Shown: positions 33,088 through 43,447 of the stretch, in pieces
Position numbering within the stretch: position 1 is the stretch's first letter
How the letters are laid out: the number at the start of each line of letters is the position of its first letter
From: Epilithonimonas mollis
GTDB taxonomy: Bacteria > Bacteroidota > Bacteroidia > Flavobacteriales > Weeksellaceae
Reading direction: 5' to 3'
Length of the DNA stretch: 64,000 nt
NCBI RefSeq assembly: GCF_900142325.1
Contig: NZ_FRAM01000001.1
Span: forward strand, 930,001-994,000
The notes under the pieces: model-generated
The model's input: only the letters and a program-made list of their open reading frames with translations
Database searches by the model: none
Told to the model about the DNA's origin: nothing
Made by a program: the position numbers and the translations under genes

Positions 33088-33909
33088 TTATTTACTCCAT
33101 TTTAAGTTTTGTGCATACTTTGTATGTGGTCCAATTTCATGTGGAAAAGATTTCGAACCGGTCTCATGACCTAATGTTTGAATAACTTCATCCGTAACCC
33201 AGATGTAATTTTCAGATGTTTTATTCTTTAAATCTTTAAGTAATGGCATTTGCTCATCATTAATTACTAAATCAAAAACTTCATAAATAAAAAGACCTTT
33301 ACCTCCCATATCCAAATCAATTATAGGTGATTGAATTTTTTTCTTAAATCTATAGTCGATGTATCTAAAAGGCCGCCAGGTTAAAATTTCTGTTGCAATT
33401 AATTCTTCACAAAATTCTCTCCAAGGCGAAATCTCACGATCCTCCTTTGAATCAAACCATTTAAGAAATTCAATTAGATTTTTACCTTTTACATGAACAC
33501 GCAGATCATTTTTTGCAATTCCCTTTTCAGTTTCAAATTTTCTATCAGGTCTAACATCTAATTCTTCGAATTTTCTTTCACAGCCAGGTAATGTTTTATA
33601 ACAACCACCCACAGGCTGAAAATATTTTCTTGTTCTGCTTTTAACAAGCAAGTATTCATTTTCAACTTTTATTCTATACAGATATGAAATAGAAACACGA
33701 ACATCAGTATTTTTTAACAAAACCTTTGACTGGAAATAAAACCCAAGTCTATTGTAGTTTTCATATACAAAAGTTACAATGAAGGTAAGTAATGTGATAT
33801 ATCCCGTAGTGGAATATTTAGATTCTGTCCAGTTTCCTTTTTCGATGTATCCTCCAACGATTAGAATAACAGACAGAATTATTTGTAGAAAGATAGGTCC
33901 TTTTTTCAT
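33088..33909 (-). CDS. CBASS effector: two-TM protein with NUDIX-like domain
   Basis: A 273-residue protein. Two hydrophobic helices (about residues 5-21 and 36-49) anchor it in the inner membrane, and the remainder is cytoplasmic. The soluble part resembles the SMODS-associated NUDIX domain: QPVGG at residues 98-102 and a NUDIX-box-like E156-x7-R164-E165-F-C-E168-E169. The closing Gly of the box is missing, so it may bind rather than hydrolyse a nucleotide signal. Its position as the last gene of the operon, overlapping the ATPase gene by 4 bases, marks it as the effector. The expected action is membrane disruption on sensing the cyclic oligonucleotide; this is family-level inference. Confidence 0.75.
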   Translation of the reverse strand: MKKGPIFLQIILSVILIVGGYIEKGNWTESKYSTTGYITLLTFIVTFVYENYNRLGFYFQSKVLLKNTDVRVSISYLYRIKVENEYLLVKSRTRKYFQPVGGCYKTLPGCERKFEELDVRPDRKFETEKGIAKNDLRVHVKGKNLIEFLKWFDSKEDREISPWREFCEELIATEILTWRPFRYIDYRFKKKIQSPIIDLDMGGKGLFIYEVFDLVINDEQMPLLKDLKNKTSENYIWVTDEVIQTLGHETGSKSFPHEIGPHTKYAQNLKWSK

Positions 33910-34790
33910 ACAATTTTAGGGCTTGGATTAAGTTTTTTAATTGTCTCGGCGACAGTTTCAAAATCTAAAGCTTTATCCGGGAAACATTTTGCAACAGCTT
34001 CTGGCAATATTCTTAATCTTATATCTGAAAAAGAAAAAGAAAGTCCATTGTTCGATTCCTCTCCTGACAGGTTAGCCAATTCCTCTAACTGCTTATCTGT
34101 AATTTCAACACCAGCGAGAGAGGTTTTAAAAAGAAGCACTCTTTCCTCAAAGGTGGGACGCTCAAATTCTAAAATAATTGCCGCCCTTCTCACAATAGCT
34201 TCATCAAGAAAATGCAATCTGTTTGTCGACATAAACAATATTGCTCGCCCATTTAGTTCACGAATTTCATCAATTTTTTGAATTAATGTATTTACAGCTG
34301 CTTTTTCTTCCTGATGCATCTGCATGGTAGATCTTGTCGAAGCAATTGCATCAGCTTCGTCAATTAGTAAAAATGCTATTCGTTTCTTACCTGCTTGAGT
34401 TTTTAGTTCAGCAAATGCATCATTTACTAAATTCCCCATTTGACCATGAAGACCTTCTCCTCTAACTCTTGTACTCAGTTTTAGAAAAAAACCTTCCTTT
34501 TTTAATTCCCTAAGCATTCTGTCCGCAATGGCCTCGGCAGAAACAGTTTTGCCTGTTCCTGCGTCACCTGCCAATATAATTAATGGATATTTTTCTTTCA
34601 GTTGTGAAATTACTGGAAGTTCTGTTTTATGAAATTTTTTGCTCCACTCAACAAGACCTTCTTGATCCAGCAAGAGCTTTAAGTTCGAAAGTATCCTATT
34701 ATATTTGTTTTCAAAACCAATTAAGTGTTTAGCTCTTTCGGCAATTTCTCTACTAGGAAGTTCTGTTATATTATCAAAAATTGTACTCAT
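33906..34790 (-). CDS. TRIP13/Pch2-like AAA+ ATPase (CBASS Cap6-type)
   Basis: A 294-residue single-domain AAA+ protein. Walker A is GDAGTGKT (75-82), Walker B is FLLIDEADAIAS with DEAD at 144-147, sensor 1 is ILFMSTNR, and the paired arginines are in AIVRRAAIILEF. The pore-loop region is RGEGLHGQMGNLV. It resembles eukaryotic TRIP13, which remodels HORMA proteins; in CBASS the equivalent ATPase opens the HORMA-CD-NTase complex and switches signalling off. Its gene lies 2 bases after the HORMA gene and overlaps the effector start (ATGA), so the four genes form one operon. Confidence 0.88.
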   Translation of the reverse strand: MSTIFDNITELPSREIAERAKHLIGFENKYNRILSNLKLLLDQEGLVEWSKKFHKTELPVISQLKEKYPLIILAGDAGTGKTVSAEAIADRMLRELKKEGFFLKLSTRVRGEGLHGQMGNLVNDAFAELKTQAGKKRIAFLLIDEADAIASTRSTMQMHQEEKAAVNTLIQKIDEIRELNGRAILFMSTNRLHFLDEAIVRRAAIILEFERPTFEERVLLFKTSLAGVEITDKQLEELANLSGEESNNGLSFSFSDIRLRILPEAVAKCFPDKALDFETVAETIKKLNPSPKIV

Positions 34791-34792
34791 AT

Positions 34793-35302
34793 TTATTTAA
34801 AATTCTTTTTTTGTAATTCATATCCATTACTTGCATACAACTGTGCATCTGACTGTTGCAGATGCGGAAAATTAGTATTAATATCTGTACTACCCCAACT
34901 GAGTTTTAATTCCTTTTGAAAATTTGTTTTCTCTTCAGAAGTTAGGTTCCTCCATTTCTGAGTATGAGATAATATAATTGATAGTGAAGTGTTATCAGTA
35001 TCTGGCCAATCATTATTTTTCCCAGCGCGTTCGCTGTCGGTTGCATCACCTAAATCATTTACAATAAATTTAGCTGCTTTCACTGGCAAACCCGTATTGG
35101 TATTGATCAAGGTTATGCTTACTGATTGTAAATAATATTTTTCTGCATATTTGAGCACATCATGGAAAACCTTATCTACGTATTCCATTGTCCACTTATT
35201 AGTGCGTCTGGCAATTGTTCTGATATCTGCCTCACAGCTTTCAAATGTTTTTCTTATATCAAGGACCGTATAAGTATTTGTTTTTGTATTTGTTCCGTAC
35301 AT
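34793..35302 (-). CDS. Bacterial HORMA-domain protein (CBASS Cap7-type)
   Basis: A 169-residue protein. The N-terminal stretch TVLDIRKTFESCEADIRTIARRTNKW and the following VDKVFHDVLKYAEKYYLQSVSITLI correspond to the first helices and strand of bacterial HORMA domains found in CBASS. The C-terminal part from about residue 130 would form the mobile safety belt. In these systems HORMA binds a peptide, closes around it and activates the adjacent CD-NTase; TRIP13 reverses this. Recognition rests mainly on context plus the N-terminal pattern. It sits 8 bases after the CD-NTase gene. Confidence 0.78.
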   Translation of the reverse strand: MYGTNTKTNTYTVLDIRKTFESCEADIRTIARRTNKWTMEYVDKVFHDVLKYAEKYYLQSVSITLINTNTGLPVKAAKFIVNDLGDATDSERAGKNNDWPDTDNTSLSIILSHTQKWRNLTSEEKTNFQKELKLSWGSTDINTNFPHLQQSDAQLYASNGYELQKKNFK

Positions 35303-35310
35303 AGTTTAAT

Positions 35311-36297
35311 TTATTTAATGTTAAAGGTTGGACCGAAAACACTTTTCCATTCTTGTATAGTATCTCCTTCATTATTTCTTGCTTGAGCAAAGTTCAAAGT
35401 ATCAAATGCCTCTTCAGCCTCTTCAATAATTTCGGCCCATCTTGGTTTGGTCATTCTCTTTGCAACATTATTTTCTTTATTAGTATTGTCAGCAACATAG
35501 ATTGCTGAATCGTACTGTGTCGGAACACTACGAATGGAATCTTGAAAAATAATTTCTGGAAATTCAGTAGAACTTACAAATTCAAAAAAACGAATGATTC
35601 CTTCTTCGATATTTGTTTGGATTCCTTTATTTATGTCAAGATAGGCAACAATCAATTCAATCGTAAAAGAAGATAATCCTGGTTCATTATCAGAAGGTTT
35701 TAATTCTTTGTAATTTCTCCACCATTTTATAGCTCTTACAATTGAAGTGTAAGCAGAATTTTCTTGTCTTCTGTTAAGTGAAAAACTTAACTGCTTGGAA
35801 ATACTGGTAATATACTTTTTACCATTTCCATGTCTGCTGGGTTGCCATACATAATCCTTTGGTGTGCTTAATGGGACTACAGGAACAATATCAACGCTTA
35901 GTCCGGAACCTGAAAAATAAATGGTTACCGACTTTGTGTTTCCAGCAGCATCCACATCTTTAGAAATGTCTTTTTGTGGATAAATTTCTTCCAAATATTC
36001 TACAATAAAATCAAAAAGCTTCCCAATGTCATTATGAATATCTTCATCACCAGTAACAAAAAGTACAAGATCAATATCTATGGGATGGTCTCCCGTAGGT
36101 TTCAAAATCGTATGTTTTTTCCACGAACCAGCGAGAAGATATTTCTCAACCTTTAATCCATGTCTGTCATCTTCAGCAATTTTTTTGTCTAATTTTTCTT
36201 TCAGGTTGTTTACCTGATCTCTATACTTGCCCATGTTTTCAGGCTGCAGTTTGATTTTACTAATAAAAAACTGTAAATCTTTGTCTGATAATTTCAT
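35311..36297 (-). CDS. CD-NTase (cGAS/DncV-like nucleotidyltransferase) of a CBASS operon
   Basis: A 328-residue nucleotidyltransferase. The GS motif GSWKKHT (Gly57, Ser58) is followed by the metal-binding DID (Asp74, Asp76) in HPIDIDLVLF and the third acidic residue Asp136 in LSVDIVPVV. This triad is complete, so it should be active, making a cyclic di- or trinucleotide after phage infection. The helical second half (IVRAIKWWRNYKE) is the nucleotidyltransferase-associated domain. Which clade it belongs to, and so which product, cannot be read here. It is the first gene of the four-gene operon; a 15-bp palindrome lies 54 bases upstream. Confidence 0.9.
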   Translation of the reverse strand: MKLSDKDLQFFISKIKLQPENMGKYRDQVNNLKEKLDKKIAEDDRHGLKVEKYLLAGSWKKHTILKPTGDHPIDIDLVLFVTGDEDIHNDIGKLFDFIVEYLEEIYPQKDISKDVDAAGNTKSVTIYFSGSGLSVDIVPVVPLSTPKDYVWQPSRHGNGKKYITSISKQLSFSLNRRQENSAYTSIVRAIKWWRNYKELKPSDNEPGLSSFTIELIVAYLDINKGIQTNIEEGIIRFFEFVSSTEFPEIIFQDSIRSVPTQYDSAIYVADNTNKENNVAKRMTKPRWAEIIEEAEEAFDTLNFAQARNNEGDTIQEWKSVFGPTFNIK

Positions 36298-36365: not shown

Positions 36366-36514
36366 AAAAGTCTGATTTTAATATAAATAGAGCCAAATGT
36401 AATTTTATTTTTCAAAAATATATTACGGAAATCCGTAAGCATATTATAATCTTTTAAAGAACCTCAAAAAACTACTAGCTCTTTCTCATTTATATAATGA
36501 TATTAAAAATTGGT

Positions 36515-36550
36515 AAACTCCAAGTATCATTTTTAGGATACCTGGAGTTT
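36515..36550 (-). terminator. Hairpin after the 58-residue gene
   Basis: AAACTCCA plus GTATC (36515-36528) pairs with GATAC plus TGGAGTTT (36537-36550), with one mismatch. It lies 8 bases beyond the stop codon of the small minus-strand gene. Confidence 0.65.
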
Positions 36551-36558
36551 AAATGGAG

Positions 36559-36735
36559 TTACTTTTCCTTGGTAACTCCTTTGAAGGGAGTGTTACTAGA
36601 AGTTTTTACATCCATAAATCTACCTGTAGCAGTATCGCGTTTCACCCAAGAATCTGTTTGTGGATTGTAGGTTTGTGAACGCCCTTTAACTGCTCCATTT
36701 CTGTGACCGTCTCCAGTCGGTTTGTTAGTTGCCAT
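36559..36735 (-). CDS. Conserved small basic protein, 58 residues
   Basis: The frame from the ATG at 36735 to the TAA at 36559 encodes a 58-residue, basic, probably disordered protein starting MATNKPTGDGHRNGAVKGR and containing SWVKRDTATGRFMDVK and TPFKGVTKEK. I recall this type of sequence (KPTGDGxR.GAVK.RSQ ... KRDT..GRFMD) as a small hypothetical protein recurring in accessory islands of many bacteria, with no assigned role. There is no signal peptide or Cys. It has its own hairpin and diverges from the sigma-like operon across a repeat-rich control region, which suggests shared regulation. Confidence 0.8.
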   Translation of the reverse strand: MATNKPTGDGHRNGAVKGRSQTYNPQTDSWVKRDTATGRFMDVKTSSNTPFKGVTKEK

Positions 36736-36802
36736 AATTAGTAAGCATTTTTTCCTTTAACATTCTAGGCCATAAAGGAATTGACCATTGAACAAACTTC
36801 AA

Positions 36803-36881
36803 TCATATACTAATTCCATTAGAAAGATTTTTTTAACTTTGAAGTATATGAGCCTATCCACTCATATACTAATTCCATTAG
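36803..36881. promoter_or_regulatory. Operator region with two 20-bp direct repeats and an inverted copy
   Basis: TCATATACTAATTCCATTAG is present identically at 36803-36822 and 36862-36881. AGTATATGAG at 36843-36852 is the exact inverse of CTCATATACT at 36861-36870. Three related half-sites therefore flank the promoter of the sigma-like gene, one upstream of its -7 element and two in the leader. Confidence 0.85.
36834..36841 (+). promoter_or_regulatory. -7 promoter element of the sigma-like operon
   Basis: TAACTTTG matches TAnnTTTG, giving a leader of about 50 bases that contains the inverted repeat of the operator region. Confidence 0.6.
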
Positions 36882-36901
36882 TAATGCATTTTGGTATATA
36901 G

Positions 36902-37597
36902 ATGAATGTAGAACAAAAAAAAACCGATGAAATAGTTTTTGAGACATTACCCAGTGATGAGCTTATAGATTATATTTCTTTTAAAGAAGAATATCCTGAA
37001 GAAGCTGCTGCAGCGTTTACCGAGTTTTGTAGTAGGTTTGAAAGAGATATTTTGCAAAAAGCAGAAATATATTGTAATAAATTTAATTACAGTGAGGTTG
37101 TTGCACTTGAAATAGCAACTTGTGCTTTTGCCCGCGTTTGGAAATATCACTCTTTTAATAAAAGTAAAGCCAAGTATCCGGATGATATTGATCGGTCGAT
37201 TTTGTTATGGCTTTATCCAATAGTATATACTCAATTGGTAAAATATGGAGATTTAAATACCTGTGCGGAACCTGATGAAGACGATTTATCAATTGTAGAG
37301 AATATTGATGATCTAATTTCGTTAACAGTAGGAGACGATGATATACAAAAGAAAAGAGAGCTGAAAATTAGATTAGAAATCATTGAGAGAGCTATGCTTG
37401 GTCTATCTGAAAAACATAAGATTGTGTATCTTACATATAAAGCTTACGAAAATACCGGAAAAAAAAATATACCAAGGTCAGTGGGTAAAAAATTGAGAGA
37501 CAGATTGAATTTAGTTCAAAATTCAATTCAGGTTTATAAAAAAGAAGCTAATGATCACATTAATAACTATCTAAAAGCTTTCAATGGGAATAGATAA
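36902..37597 (+). CDS. Sigma-70-like protein, divergent member
   Basis: A 231-residue acidic protein. Residues about 45-110 (VVALEIATCAFARVWKYHSF ... ILLWLYPIVYTQLVKY) resemble sigma-70 region 2: a helix with an aromatic RVWKY pattern and then a WLYPI segment like the WLYRIARN of ECF sigmas. Residues about 165-215 (AMLGLSEKHKIVYLTYKAYE ... IPRSVGKKLRDRLNLVQNSIQVYKKEA) resemble the region 4 helix-turn-helix. Between them is an acidic linker. It could be a dedicated sigma factor or a sigma-derived transcription regulator. It is the first gene of a three-gene operon with overlapping reading frames. Confidence 0.6.
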   Translation: MNVEQKKTDEIVFETLPSDELIDYISFKEEYPEEAAAAFTEFCSRFERDILQKAEIYCNKFNYSEVVALEIATCAFARVWKYHSFNKSKAKYPDDIDRSILLWLYPIVYTQLVKYGDLNTCAEPDEDDLSIVENIDDLISLTVGDDDIQKKRELKIRLEIIERAMLGLSEKHKIVYLTYKAYENTGKKNIPRSVGKKLRDRLNLVQNSIQVYKKEANDHINNYLKAFNGNR

Positions 37598-37928
37598 AAA
37601 ATATATAGGAAAGGTTACAGAGACTAACCTTGATGATTGGTTACATTCAACAGGTTTTTTATTTCCTCAGAATAAAACTCAGATAGAGAGGTTTAATAAA
37701 CTTTATGAAGATTATGATTTTAAGTTGAAAAACACAGGTATTAATGTCAAATCAATTATTGATGGTTCTTTTTGCGTTGAAAAAGAATCAAAAATTATAT
37801 CAATTGACACAAACTTAAGTCATGAAATAGAAAGTTTGAAAATGGTCGCCAGAAAAGGGCAAAGCAATATTTCTCAAAGCGTCTTTGACAAAATGAAACA
37901 GAATCAGAAAAAGAAGAAAGGTGATTGA
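37584..37928 (+). CDS. Unknown 114-residue protein between the sigma-like and peptidase genes
   Basis: It overlaps the end of the sigma-like gene by 14 bases and its own stop overlaps the peptidase start by 8 bases, so it is surely translated as part of the operon. It starts MGIDKKYIGKVTETNLDDWL, has GFLFPQNKTQIERFNKLYEDYDFKL in the middle, and ends in a very basic tail (MKQNQKKKKGD). No signal peptide or membrane helix. I do not recognise the family. Its place between a sigma-like protein and an ImmA-type protease is where an anti-sigma or protease substrate would fit, but that is only context. Confidence 0.75.
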   Translation: MGIDKKYIGKVTETNLDDWLHSTGFLFPQNKTQIERFNKLYEDYDFKLKNTGINVKSIIDGSFCVEKESKIISIDTNLSHEIESLKMVARKGQSNISQSVFDKMKQNQKKKKGD

Positions 37929-38721
37929 TAGCAGTTCCTTATCAAAAATTAAAAAGCTTGCTGGATCCATTAGTGGAAATTTCAATACTGAAAAAATAAT
38001 TCCATTACATCTTATTGCAGAATCTGAGGACATTGAGGTATTTTATGATCATTATGACAAAGGGACTTTTGATGGAATGACTGTTTATGATGATAATGAA
38101 TTTTATATTCATATTAATATAGATAATCATAATAGGTTTAATTCTCCGCGTTCTAGATTTACACTAGCCCACGAACTTGGGCACTATTTTATAGACACAC
38201 ATCGCGTTGGACTCAAACTGGGAATTTTAGAACCTCATCCCTCGAAAATTGACAGGGTTCAATTCGATAAAATTGAAAGAGAAGCAGATTATTTTGCGGC
38301 TTGTCTCTTAATGCCAGAAGAATCTTTTCAACGAAATTTATGGAAGAGAAAAAAATTTAGTTTTAAAGTGATTGATGAGTTAAGCAAGGAATATAATGTG
38401 AGTAAAACTTCATGTGCACTCAGATTTGCAGAAATAGGAAATCATCCTATCAAAATAGTTTATGCTGAGAATGGATTTGTGAAATGGCAAAAAAACAGTC
38501 AGGGCTTCCCTTTCTGGAACTTACTTAATGATAAAAAAGTTCCTGAAGGTTTAGCTATGGCTGATTATTTTAAAAATGTAAAAACTTCAATTGAAAATCC
38601 AGAAGAAATTTTTGCTATTGATTGCTTTGAAAATGTAAAATCCGAAGACTCCAGAAGAATTTTCTATGAACATTGTATAGTGTATGAAAATTGTGCACTA
38701 AGTATTATTTGGGAAGATTAA
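37921..38721 (+). CDS. ImmA/IrrE-type zinc metallopeptidase
   Basis: A 266-residue cytoplasmic protein of the COG2856 family. The zinc motif is HELGH (84-88) in FTLAHELGHYFIDTH, with the third acidic ligand expected in READYFAACLLMPEE about 35 residues on, all typical of ImmA/IrrE. The C-terminal 100 residues (KIVYAENGFVKWQKN ...) form an extra domain. ImmA cleaves the ICE repressor ImmR, IrrE cleaves DdrO, and CapP acts with CapH in some CBASS loci. By analogy this protein may cut the sigma-like or 114-residue partner on a damage or infection signal. The start is GTG at 37921, set by the operon overlap and the fit of the N-terminus. Confidence 0.88.
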   Translation: MIDSSSLSKIKKLAGSISGNFNTEKIIPLHLIAESEDIEVFYDHYDKGTFDGMTVYDDNEFYIHINIDNHNRFNSPRSRFTLAHELGHYFIDTHRVGLKLGILEPHPSKIDRVQFDKIEREADYFAACLLMPEESFQRNLWKRKKFSFKVIDELSKEYNVSKTSCALRFAEIGNHPIKIVYAENGFVKWQKNSQGFPFWNLLNDKKVPEGLAMADYFKNVKTSIENPEEIFAIDCFENVKSEDSRRIFYEHCIVYENCALSIIWED

Positions 38722-39075: not shown

Positions 39076-39297
39076 ATGAGCGAAATGTCCGATTTTAAAA
39101 AGAATTATTTTAAGCATCTTGAAGAAGAAGTCACAGCAATATTAAAGGAAAATCAAAATATTGTATCTGTATTTATCAACTTTGCACAATCAAAGAATAT
39201 TAATTTGATTGAACAGGAATTGAAATATGCTCAAATGTCAGGAATAACAGTTAACTCAAAAGATTTATTTTTAAAACTTAACGAGGATATTCTGTAG
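39076..39297 (+). CDS. Hypothetical 73-residue protein
   Basis: A short frame beginning MSEMSDFKKNYFKHLEEEV and rich in Glu, Asn and Ile. It looks helical and soluble, with no signal peptide. I do not recognise it. Codon choice is AT-rich like its neighbours, and the frame is free of overlap with any larger gene, which supports it being real. It lies between the defence block and the metal block and has no obvious partner. An alternative start at 39082 would remove two residues. Confidence 0.5.
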   Translation: MSEMSDFKKNYFKHLEEEVTAILKENQNIVSVFINFAQSKNINLIEQELKYAQMSGITVNSKDLFLKLNEDIL

Positions 39298-41902: not shown

Positions 41903-43447
41903 GAGGCTGTCTCAAAAGGACAGTCTTTTTTTGTGCTTTGTTTAAAAATCCGATTTTTGAAGTTTTCTATTTTTGATTTTTTGAAAAACAAAGCTAAAAA
42001 AGTCAAAAAAACAGTCTATTTCAGGCTGCTTTTGCCATTTTTTTGAGATTATGGGCAATGGCGAGAATGCCGATTTCTACTTCGACCTTAGTTTTTCCTC
42101 GAAGCATAAAACGTTTAAAATTTTTGTTGTGTTTGAGCTCTGCAAAAACAGGTTCAACATCGTGACATCGCTGTTTTCGGAGTTTGATGCCTTTTTTGGT
42201 ATTGAGAAGTTTGAAAACCCTTTCCCTGATTTTTGCCAGCTTCGGATTGTTTTGAGAAGTGGTTATTTGTCCCGATTTTTGATCTTTTCTGAAGTAATTG
42301 TATTTAACATAAGATTTTATTTTCTTGTTTTTCAGTAGGTTATAGTTTTCTTCCGAACCGTAGCCTGCATCGGCAACGAGCTCTTTCGGAACTTTATGAT
42401 AGCTGTCTTCAAAACCTTTTAAATGAGACTCCAATGTTTTGGTATCCGTAGGATTGGGATGAATGGAATAATGTAAAATAAATTGTTTATTCGTAGAAAT
42501 CTGTAGATTATAGGCCGCTTTGAGTTGTCCGTTTCGCATATGATCCTCTTTCATCCGCATAAAAGTAGCATCTGTATCGGTCTTGGAATAAGAGTTTCTG
42601 GCTTGTAAAATCGCCTGTTGTTTTTTGTATTTATCCAAATTGTTTGCCCAGTTTTTATTGGCATAATTCAGTTTCTGGCGAACTTTCGAAGGTATTTTTT
42701 TATCCTTCAACACCTCGTTGATCTTGTCGATGGTTTGTGTTACTTTTTCTGAATCAATCTCTTTAAAATCGATGTTTTCAGTGTTTTGAAGCTCTTCTTT
42801 TGCCACACTTTCTGCATAATTCCAAAGTTCTTCCAGTTGCTCTGCAATTCTTAGCTGATGCTTCTTGATGGCTCTTCCCCAAACAAAAGTATAGCGGTTG
42901 GCATTGGCCTCTATCTTGGTCCCATCTACAAAAGTGGTTTCCAGGCTTACCAAACCTTCCTTCTCCAAAAGCAAAACAATTTGTGTAAAGATGGCTTTTA
43001 CTTCACCCTTTAATCGCTCGCTTCGAAACCTGTTCAAAGTATTATGATCAGGACGGCTCATCGCCGAAAGCCACATAAAATGGATGTTTTCCTTCAATGC
43101 CTGTTCCATTTTCCGGCTTGAATAAATGTTACTCAAATAACCATAAATCAATACTTTCAAAAGCATTTTCGGATGGTAAGACGATGTTCCTCCCGGTTTG
43201 TAGGTTTTGATTAAGTTTTTAATATCCAAACCATCGATAATGTTTGAAACTATTTTCACAGGATGCTTGTCATCAATCAACTCCGACAAATTCGGAGGAA
43301 AAAGCAAATTTTCTTTGGGATTGTAATCTTTAAAGACTACCTTTTAATTAATTAACACACAGCAATTTACAAAATTTGCTACAATTAGGAAAGCCTCGGC
43401 TTTCCTTTTTTGCATAAAAAAGGCTATCTCGCTTTTGAGACAGCCTC
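41903..43447. mobile_element. IS1182-type insertion sequence
   Basis: Both ends carry GAGGCTGTCTCAAAAG as inverted repeats, at 41903-41918 and the mirrored copy ending at 43447. The element is about 1545 bp and contains one transposase gene on the minus strand. A hairpin (AGGAAAGCCTCGGCTTTCCT, near 43388) lies upstream of the transposase. I find no clear target-site duplication at the flanks. Confidence 0.9.
42021..43307 (-). CDS. IS1182-type DDE transposase
   Basis: A 428-residue transposase. N-terminal FPPNLSELIDDKHPVKIVSN and SRPDHNTLNRFR are typical of IS1182-type and related IS5-like transposases. The DDE residues lie in TTFVDGTKIEANANRYTFVW, ELVADAGYGSEENY and DVEPVFAELKHNKNFKRF. The usual start with ATG is not present: the coding signal extends 12 codons upstream (KVVFKDYNPKEN) to a stop codon, and the first usable codon is TTG at 43307. 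The gene may start at TTG, or a start codon may have been lost, making activity doubtful. Confidence 0.9.
   Translation of the reverse strand: MLFPPNLSELIDDKHPVKIVSNIIDGLDIKNLIKTYKPGGTSSYHPKMLLKVLIYGYLSNIYSSRKMEQALKENIHFMWLSAMSRPDHNTLNRFRSERLKGEVKAIFTQIVLLLEKEGLVSLETTFVDGTKIEANANRYTFVWGRAIKKHQLRIAEQLEELWNYAESVAKEELQNTENIDFKEIDSEKVTQTIDKINEVLKDKKIPSKVRQKLNYANKNWANNLDKYKKQQAILQARNSYSKTDTDATFMRMKEDHMRNGQLKAAYNLQISTNKQFILHYSIHPNPTDTKTLESHLKGFEDSYHKVPKELVADAGYGSEENYNLLKNKKIKSYVKYNYFRKDQKSGQITTSQNNPKLAKIRERVFKLLNTKKGIKLRKQRCHDVEPVFAELKHNKNFKRFMLRGKTKVEVEIGILAIAHNLKKMAKAA

Follow-up and report, generated by a model that had tools for sequence, protein, structure and literature searches.

A sigma-factor-like protein, a small partner and a CapP-type protease form a conserved cassette linked to divergent immune operons

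The closest described relatives of the genes reported here are controllers of the CapH+CapP type, which reportedly pair an M78-family protease activated by single-stranded DNA (ssDNA) with a helix-turn-helix (HTH) repressor. Here we analyse a stretch of 64,000 nucleotides from Epilithonimonas mollis (assembly GCF_900142325.1, contig NZ_FRAM01000001.1, positions 930,001 to 994,000; hereafter the window), in which three overlapping genes encode a protein resembling sigma factors of the extracytoplasmic function (ECF) group (SIG), a small middle protein (MID) and a CapP-like protease, divergent from a cyclic-oligonucleotide-based antiphage signalling system (CBASS). We regard it as an even call whether SIG, MID and the protease together make up a portable controller dedicated to the defence operon that faces them, in which the protease frees SIG from MID and SIG activates the operon. 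The DNA-damage controllers of immune operons, CapW/BrxR, CapH+CapP and CapK+CapS, are all repressors in the part of PMC13373217 used here, where CapW or CapH+CapP are counted in 219 of 544 Bub operons (PMC13373217); some of those 219 operons may carry the present cassette. The open reading frame (ORF) list and the translations confirm the four ORFs at the centre of this work, with the coordinates and overlaps that an earlier note on this DNA had given:

36902-37597, plus strand: SIG, 231 residues, predicted to be a divergent member of the ECF sigma-70 family in which an acidic linker joins regions 2 and 4
37584-37928, plus strand: MID, 114-residue partner and candidate substrate, overlapping SIG by 14 nt
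37921-38721, plus strand: protease, 266 residues, GTG start, CapP-like M78 (ImmA/IrrE) metalloprotease, overlapping MID by 8 nt
36559-36735, minus strand: 58-residue PDC-S38 family protein, whose gene likely opens the divergent defence operon or is accessory to it

Like CapH+CapP, the cassette contains a CapP-type protease with a homologous C-terminal domain and a small protein encoded directly upstream of it, and lies on the promoter side of CBASS, Pycsar (pyrimidine cyclase system for antiphage resistance) and Bub operons, with ssDNA as the presumed trigger here. It departs from that pair in its other members, an unrelated 114-residue protein and an ECF-sigma-like protein in place of the Xre-type HTH protein CapH, and in its output, as CapH+CapP works by repression whereas no repression is confirmed here. 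SIG recalls the ECF sigma/anti-sigma pairs SigW/RsiW and SigE/ChrR in its regions 2 and 4, in the partner encoded just downstream and in the motif upstream of its own gene; unlike in those pairs, MID shows no homology to any known anti-sigma domain, SIG would be released by a soluble M78 protease, and the motif lacks the normal -35/-10 spacing. CapK+CapS and CapW/BrxR are controllers found beside the same kinds of operon, and CapS likewise has narrow and wide palindromic sites (PMC13373217), but their kinase, STAS and WYL domains have no counterpart in the cassette. Finally, the PprI(IrrE)-DdrO system of Deinococcus, as presented in the part of PMC10904395 used here, also combines an M78 protease carrying a C-terminal GAF-like domain with a regulator controlled by cleavage, although its substrate is the DNA-binding repressor DdrO and no sigma factor is involved (PMC10904395).

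The gene order SIG-MID-protease is conserved, and the cassette occurs in Bacteroidota and in a small number of other phyla. Whole-genome searches returned 18 SIG relatives at E <= 1e-11 (L001-L006, L018-L022, L036-L042), several of them near copies of the window; a protease gene follows SIG in all 18 and a MID gene in 17, the eighteenth (L039) having been found by an iterated model. Two weaker SIG matches (L008, L009) also carry the cassette, while the other 29 weaker matches examined (L023-L035, L043-L058) have no protease within 1.5 kb and are presumed to be ordinary ECF sigmas. One further hit (L007/L017, genome G097) was a false match with in-frame stops and was dropped. An independent scan of the named genomes started from the protease and kept the best 80 of 94 matches; the 19 best of these (L059-L077) all have a MID-like gene directly upstream, and 17 of the 19 a SIG-like gene as well, the models having been iterated on these loci. 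The two exceptions are L070, which is cut by a contig start, and L068, where other ORFs fill the place. Carriers include Flavobacterium, Tenacibaculum, Sphingobacterium, Mucilaginibacter, Planctomycetota/Phycisphaerae and Fodinibius (phylum Balneolota). On the co-occurrence check that the earlier note had proposed, the set proved to be conserved across genomes and tied to defence genes, not a group of unrelated neighbours.

The 266-residue protein, previously read as an ImmA-type peptidase comparable to CapP, is indeed a CapP-type M78 protease. It falls into Pfam Peptidase_M78 (2.1e-14) and matches the PADLOC capP model (3e-66), and a profile of 20 family members matches CapP (PDB 7t5t) at 1.9e-24 over positions 77-266, the C-terminal domain included. 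The H-E-x-G-H signature and, downstream of it, E119/E121 are present without exception in all 20 family members. CapP has been reported to be activated by ssDNA (PMC13373217, PMC10904395), and so has PprI, whose C-terminal GAF-like domain is needed for activation (PMC10904395; both papers in the parts used here); by analogy, the present protease may sense ssDNA as well. Inspection by eye placed true HTH CapH genes upstream of many more distant, mostly proteobacterial proteases. A search of phage records with the protease at E <= 1e-15 gave no match. On viral contigs (IMG/VR), a SIG-like ORF accompanies protease relatives in 7 of the 80 loci kept (L216-L221, L243), two of which (L219, L221) have a MID-like ORF too; these are possible phage-borne versions.

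A single SIG sequence has no credible match in Pfam, NCBIfam, PADLOC or PDB, and its affiliation emerges at the profile level. Searched against PDB, an 18-member profile (A4) matches SigW (6.5e-10) and RpoE (1.4e-7), with its C-terminal part also matching RpoH and, weakly, SigA; compared with a profile of 28 presumed ordinary ECF sigmas, SIG reaches E 6.5e-25. Four members pass the Pfam Sigma70_r2 cut-off of 24 bits (L087, 39.1 bits; L076, 30.5; L077, 26.1; L069, 25.0), L015 and L042 stay below it, and none of the members scanned passes a region-4 cut-off. The AlphaFold (AF2) model of SIG is all helical, with a mean predicted local distance difference test score (pLDDT) of 87 and a predicted template modelling score (pTM) of 0.56, and the top of the Foldseek list obtained with it consists mostly of ECF sigmas (probability 0.97-1.0 for ranks 1-10). 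A plasmid homologue, NZ_MN657149.1, carries the NCBI name 'sigma-70 family RNA polymerase sigma factor'. SIG retains region 2 with a near-invariant tryptophan, and the RNA polymerase-contact motif of region 2.2 is canonical in L038-L041 and degenerate in the window's subfamily. We conclude that SIG is, as predicted from these profiles, a divergent relative of the ECF sigma-70 factors, with homology to them in both region 2 and region 4, which bears out the sigma-like label given to the 231-residue protein at the outset. The companion statement that the locus has no HTH repressor holds for Xre-type HTH proteins, but SIG itself has a region-4-like HTH.

For MID, searches of Pfam and PDB with sequences and profiles revealed no credible relative and no HTH. 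The family is recognisable by a G-x-x-x-P element near the N-terminus and an A-R ... M element near the C-terminus (alignment A5); its AF2 model is loose and helical and of low confidence (pLDDT 68, pTM 0.31), and a fold search with this model found no PDB match with E below 3. The 114-residue protein had been called basic, which is true of the window copy (isoelectric point 9.1) but is not a family trait, as the values within the family span 4.3-9.5. The PADLOC capH model (PDLC04142) matches MID at 4.2e-13 and also matches three of three true HTH CapH proteins at 2e-29 to 3e-32; two of three type-B middle proteins tested (see below) score 8.8e-5 and 2.2e-4, perhaps a weak relation. Pfam HTH_3 is found at 4.6e-13 in a true CapH (L093), and nothing credible is found in MID. 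We therefore rejected the PADLOC label of MID as CapH: the model appears to have been built from mixed families, HTH CapH and the unrelated MID. Since it covers both, counts of CapH+CapP made with it may mix different mechanisms.

A second subtype, type B, was found at 21 loci (including L078/L149, L151-L163, L171-L176 and L178), in which different proteins of ~200 and ~132 residues precede a CapP-like protease in the same order. The best match of type-B SIG to Pfam Sigma70_r2 (1.7e-4) is below the cut-off, and profile-profile comparison with ECF sigmas gives E 1.3e-9, so that type-B SIG too is predicted to be sigma-like. Its divergent side holds a cyclase operon in 9 of the 21 loci (L212 among them), a Pycsar cyclase in L197 and L205 and a BilD protein in L210. 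The upstream repeats differ from those of type A, several loci showing, by eye, TATGCTCA ... TGAGCATA. MID-A accompanies 41 of 42 SIG-A (the MID of L087 was not recognised) and MID-B 21 of 21 SIG-B, with near copies and the ten type-B model seeds counted in; because the SIG and MID types are never mixed, we suggest that the two form a functional pair. Evolutionary distances across 40 loci yield partial correlations of 0.61 for SIG-MID, 0.47 for MID-protease and 0.25 for SIG-protease; SIG-MID exceeds SIG-protease in 99% of subsamples and MID-protease exceeds SIG-protease in 78%, and in a thinned set of 32 loci the values are 0.49, 0.46 and 0.30, respectively. These correlations fit, weakly, a SIG-MID-protease chain with MID in the middle.

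The cassette's neighbour on the divergent side in the window is, as had been proposed, a genuine CBASS; it lies at 33088-36297 (minus strand) and is of type III, with Pfam, NCBIfam and PADLOC in agreement:

35311-36297, minus strand: CD-NTase
34793-35302, minus strand: HORMA protein (bacHORMA_1)
33906-34790, minus strand: TRIP13-like ATPase (AAA)
33088-33909, minus strand: 2TM/Sa_NUDIX effector

This arrangement recurs. We compiled 31 distinct loci with a readable divergent side, leaving out L010-L013 and L059 as near copies of the window, any locus present a second time, and L062, L068 and L070, whose divergent side is not readable. A divergent defence operon is present in 28 of the 31, namely CBASS in 14 (by cyclase homology), a ubiquitin-like operon in 13 (12 by homology to E1 or ubiquitin-like (UBL) proteins, and L189 with E1-E2/JAB) and Pycsar in one (L064); the claim that the conserved set is tied to defence genes has held up. 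Cyclase seeds were checked with PADLOC, and so was L066, alone of the E1 seeds, whereas the UBL seeds were picked by eye; for L015 and L016 the UBL evidence is a 50-residue UBL fragment only. Not counted are L188, which has a PifA-like protein, and L067 and L192, where the one protein tested in each divergent side gave no match. On the downstream side, a cyclase, E1 or UBL match was found in 0 of 15 named loci with at least 6 kb covered. According to NCBI annotation, one plasmid cassette adjoins a Pycsar system, and no annotated defence operon adjoins the second. Cassettes beside a ubiquitin-like operon (L066) and beside CBASS (L181) have SIG proteins that are 97% identical, which suggests a recent swap of regulator or operon and indicates that the cassette is separable from, and moves between, defence systems. 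The coordinates of such a 97%-identical pair are 7018-7683 in L066 and 1498-2163 in L021, one genome having the ubiquitin-like operon next to it and the other CBASS.

The 58-residue protein matches the PADLOC candidate family PDC-S38 (5.2e-34), and its homologues stand at the head of many divergent operons in relatives. Because these lie 3 nt (L021) and 26 nt (L014) from the next gene, the 58-residue gene probably does no more than head the controlled operon or serve it as an accessory gene; the earlier idea that it is a target is to be widened to the divergent operon as a whole, which is the likely target, rather than this gene alone. Judged by eye, other small proteins take over its leading position in the divergent unit in L015 (246-548), L016 (7911-8156), L144 (224-400) and L296 (5145-5309); we take some of these to be DUF2188-like and others to be of a MAKDSSG... 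type.

The region between the divergent units contains a shared cis motif. In and around it we recognise the following features of the window:

36863-36901: cis site P2, an inverted pair of motif half-sites reaching up to the SIG start codon
36804-36850: cis site P1, which repeats the left arm of P2 at a place 59 nt farther upstream and has a right arm that is degenerate (arms read by eye)
36834-36841, plus strand: TAnnTTTG, a -7-like element directed at SIG
36423-36439, minus strand: weak candidate for a further motif site, upstream of the CD-NTase gene
36514-36551: terminator-like hairpin between the 58-residue gene and CBASS, with 15-nt arms that are 93% complementary

The window has a 26-nt direct repeat (92%) with copies 59 nt apart, and a comparable pair lies 60 nt apart in L006. 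Gibbs sampling of 23 upstream regions yielded a shared motif with a log-likelihood of 281, against 197-206 for eight shuffled sets run with fewer restarts; toward SIG it reads roughly T[ACG]ACG[GC]nTTTnnGTATA, and many divergent loci have a second, oppositely facing copy at variable distance. L019 and L020, in which the sampler placed its sites elsewhere, and L038-L042 were left out of training, kin were excluded for each tested locus by hand-written lists, and some SIG starts were shifted by hand. The top site of all positions in the 64-kb window is 36881-36897, with 13.1 bits under a model lacking its own site and keeping its kin, and 13.0 bits with kin left out. The site at 36423-36439 ranks second (11.7 bits), is followed by a third elsewhere (11.6 bits) and may be chance, so that control of CBASS through it is a lead only. 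With kin left out, a site scoring 9 bits or more lies in the 200 bp upstream of SIG in 22 of the 31 loci, compared to 27 of 620 random windows, which were drawn from the same loci and scored with the full model. Both plasmid loci, which were outside training, also reach at least 9 bits. In nine of the 31, no site reaches 9 bits in either direction (L014, L063, L069, L180, L186, L187, L188, L190, L192), L186-L188 having a variant motif core, and the site of L189 (9.5 bits at -187), counted as positive, is probably chance. Among the other loci outside training, the best site of the locus lies upstream of SIG in L038 and L039 and 12 nt inside the called ORF in L041; L040 has a weak site (8.8 bits) and L042 none. 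Type-B upstream regions score low (median 1.6, maximum 9.0; 21 loci), compared to a median of 15.5 and a minimum of 9.5 for type A when each locus is left out in turn (21 loci, L019 and L020 dropped).

Variants of the motif largely follow the region-4 helix of SIG, which suggests that SIG itself reads the DNA. A GCGTGA core goes with the helix SIRKYK (4 loci), CCGTTA or CCATTA with SI[RQ]VYKK and close forms (7 loci), and mostly CGTGAC with the NIR/NLR/GIR forms, the exceptions being CGTGAA (L015, L016) and TGACG (L069, L183); in the S[VI]NTY subfamily (5 loci) the core is without CGTKA. As the cores were read off by eye from loci that are related to one another, no probability is attached to this match. 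The -7 consensus of Bacteroidota housekeeping promoters is TAnnTTTG. Of 21 loci, some being related, 11 have it within 130 bp upstream of SIG and directed at SIG, against an expectation of 2.7 (0 of 400 shuffles); directed at the defence operon, it occurs within 260 bp in 0 of 21 (2.6 expected), a deficit that is not significant, as 23 of 400 shuffles are equally low.

We infer that the protease senses ssDNA, that MID is both its substrate and the inhibitor of SIG, that SIG reads the motif and that the defence operon is activated rather than derepressed. In quiet cells, MID would keep SIG inactive in the manner of an anti-sigma factor. Phage attack or damage to DNA would give rise to ssDNA and render the CapP-like protease active, whereupon it would cleave MID, and the freed SIG would act at the motif between the divergent units, turning the defence operon on and tuning its own. 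The two-domain sigma architecture, the canonical region 2.2 of deeper relatives and the absence of a visible housekeeping promoter toward the defence operon speak for activation. Several observations weigh against it. Foldseek superpositions of SIG are poor (best E 0.012, query TM-scores ~0.2-0.3, large root-mean-square deviation), so that Foldseek backs a sigma factor by ranking and not by superposition; region 2.2 is degenerate in the window's subfamily, with EIATCAF where DLVQETF is expected; and MID has no recognisable anti-sigma fold or homology in library, profile and fold searches. Likewise, the two elements of an ECF promoter are ~16 nt apart, and a clean -35/-10 reading of the motif failed, as its blocks TnACGG and GTATA are ~6 nt apart and inspection by eye showed no further block at a distance of 16 nt. 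The paired sites are near-palindromic, with narrow and wide spacing, and so suit a dimeric operator, and the SIG-facing site of the window's subfamily lies downstream of the -7-like element and stops 4 nt short of the SIG start codon, which is a repressor-like place. The site at the CBASS promoter is weak, and the terminator-like hairpin parts the 58-residue gene from CBASS. Only four of nine never-trained loci (L185-L193) reach 9 bits, and eight deeper-branching cassettes (L038-L042, L076, L077, L087) have no recognised defence operon, the linkage standing at 28 of 39 when they are added.

Much of this evidence would suit derepression, in which SIG, alone or with MID, represses both units at the motif until the ssDNA-activated protease destroys MID or SIG. 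The narrow and wide half-site pairs resemble those reported for the repressor CapS (PMC13373217), CapW/BrxR, CapH+CapP and CapK+CapS are described as derepression systems in the part of PMC13373217 used here, and the place of the site, its spacing and the degenerate region 2.2 fall into line. We nevertheless consider derepression unlikely, if well worth keeping in mind: region 2 and the near-invariant tryptophan are kept, deeper relatives have a canonical region 2.2 (L038-L041) or pass Pfam Sigma70_r2, and no housekeeping-like promoter faces the defence operon (0/21, the non-significant figure given above). It is quite improbable that the protease cleaves SIG or an unlinked protein, with MID as an adaptor or chaperone; in CapH+CapP it is the DNA-binding partner that is cleaved (PMC13373217, in the part used here), yet here MID stands between SIG and the protease in gene order, and the partial correlation is higher for MID-protease than for SIG-protease, a weak difference seen in 78% of subsamples. 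The eight cassettes lacking a recognised defence operon would be expected of a stress or toxin-antitoxin-like module that is unrelated to its neighbours and hitch-hikes in defence islands, and they leave room for a broader ancestral role. Such hitch-hiking seems very unlikely for the set as a whole in view of the divergent, promoter-proximal link (28 of 31, against 0 of 15 downstream) and of the motif between the divergent units. Chance neighbours or mis-called ORFs, finally, have next to no probability and were rejected, as gene order and overlap are conserved across loci in both the SIG- and the protease-based scans.

Taken more broadly, activation by release of SIG would mean that a soluble, DNA-damage-sensing protease cleaves a cytosolic anti-sigma protein of a new kind and so frees an ECF sigma factor dedicated to the operon, that CBASS, Pycsar and ubiquitin-like operons of Bacteroidota are positively switched by a sigma factor of their own, and that at least two SIG/MID pairs plug into one protease family; we put forward this general proposition tentatively, at somewhat short of even confidence. 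If true, it would follow a different logic from the three repressor controllers treated in the part of PMC13373217 used here, and would explain the regulation of many CBASS, Pycsar and ubiquitin-like operons in Bacteroidota, and the cassette offers a DNA motif that can be tested. Titles and abstract starts in the open-licence PubMed Central literature yielded no account of such a set that includes a sigma factor, which does not prove its absence from print. The earlier note's statement that it knew of no described system with this exact set agrees with this search but must be tempered, as the PADLOC capH and capP models already match two of the three proteins. The novelty lies in the DNA reader and the partner, both of which differ from those known for control by a CapP-type protease.

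Some further observations concern the surroundings of the cassette. In L038 and L041, and by eye in L040, it follows a gene that we take to be RibF-like; the cassettes of L038-L042 perhaps have a general stress role. Downstream of the window's cassette, a 73-residue ORF (39076-39297) resembles the start of a 343-residue protein that is intact at the same place in L010 (8390-9421), and is probably a decayed gene. A further ORF near the cassette, at 42021-43307, is transposase-like. The 97-100% identity of SIG in other genera of the window's family (G175, G179, G269) suggests recent horizontal transfer, and a near-identical locus (L059) is present in Chryseobacterium sp. 39-10.

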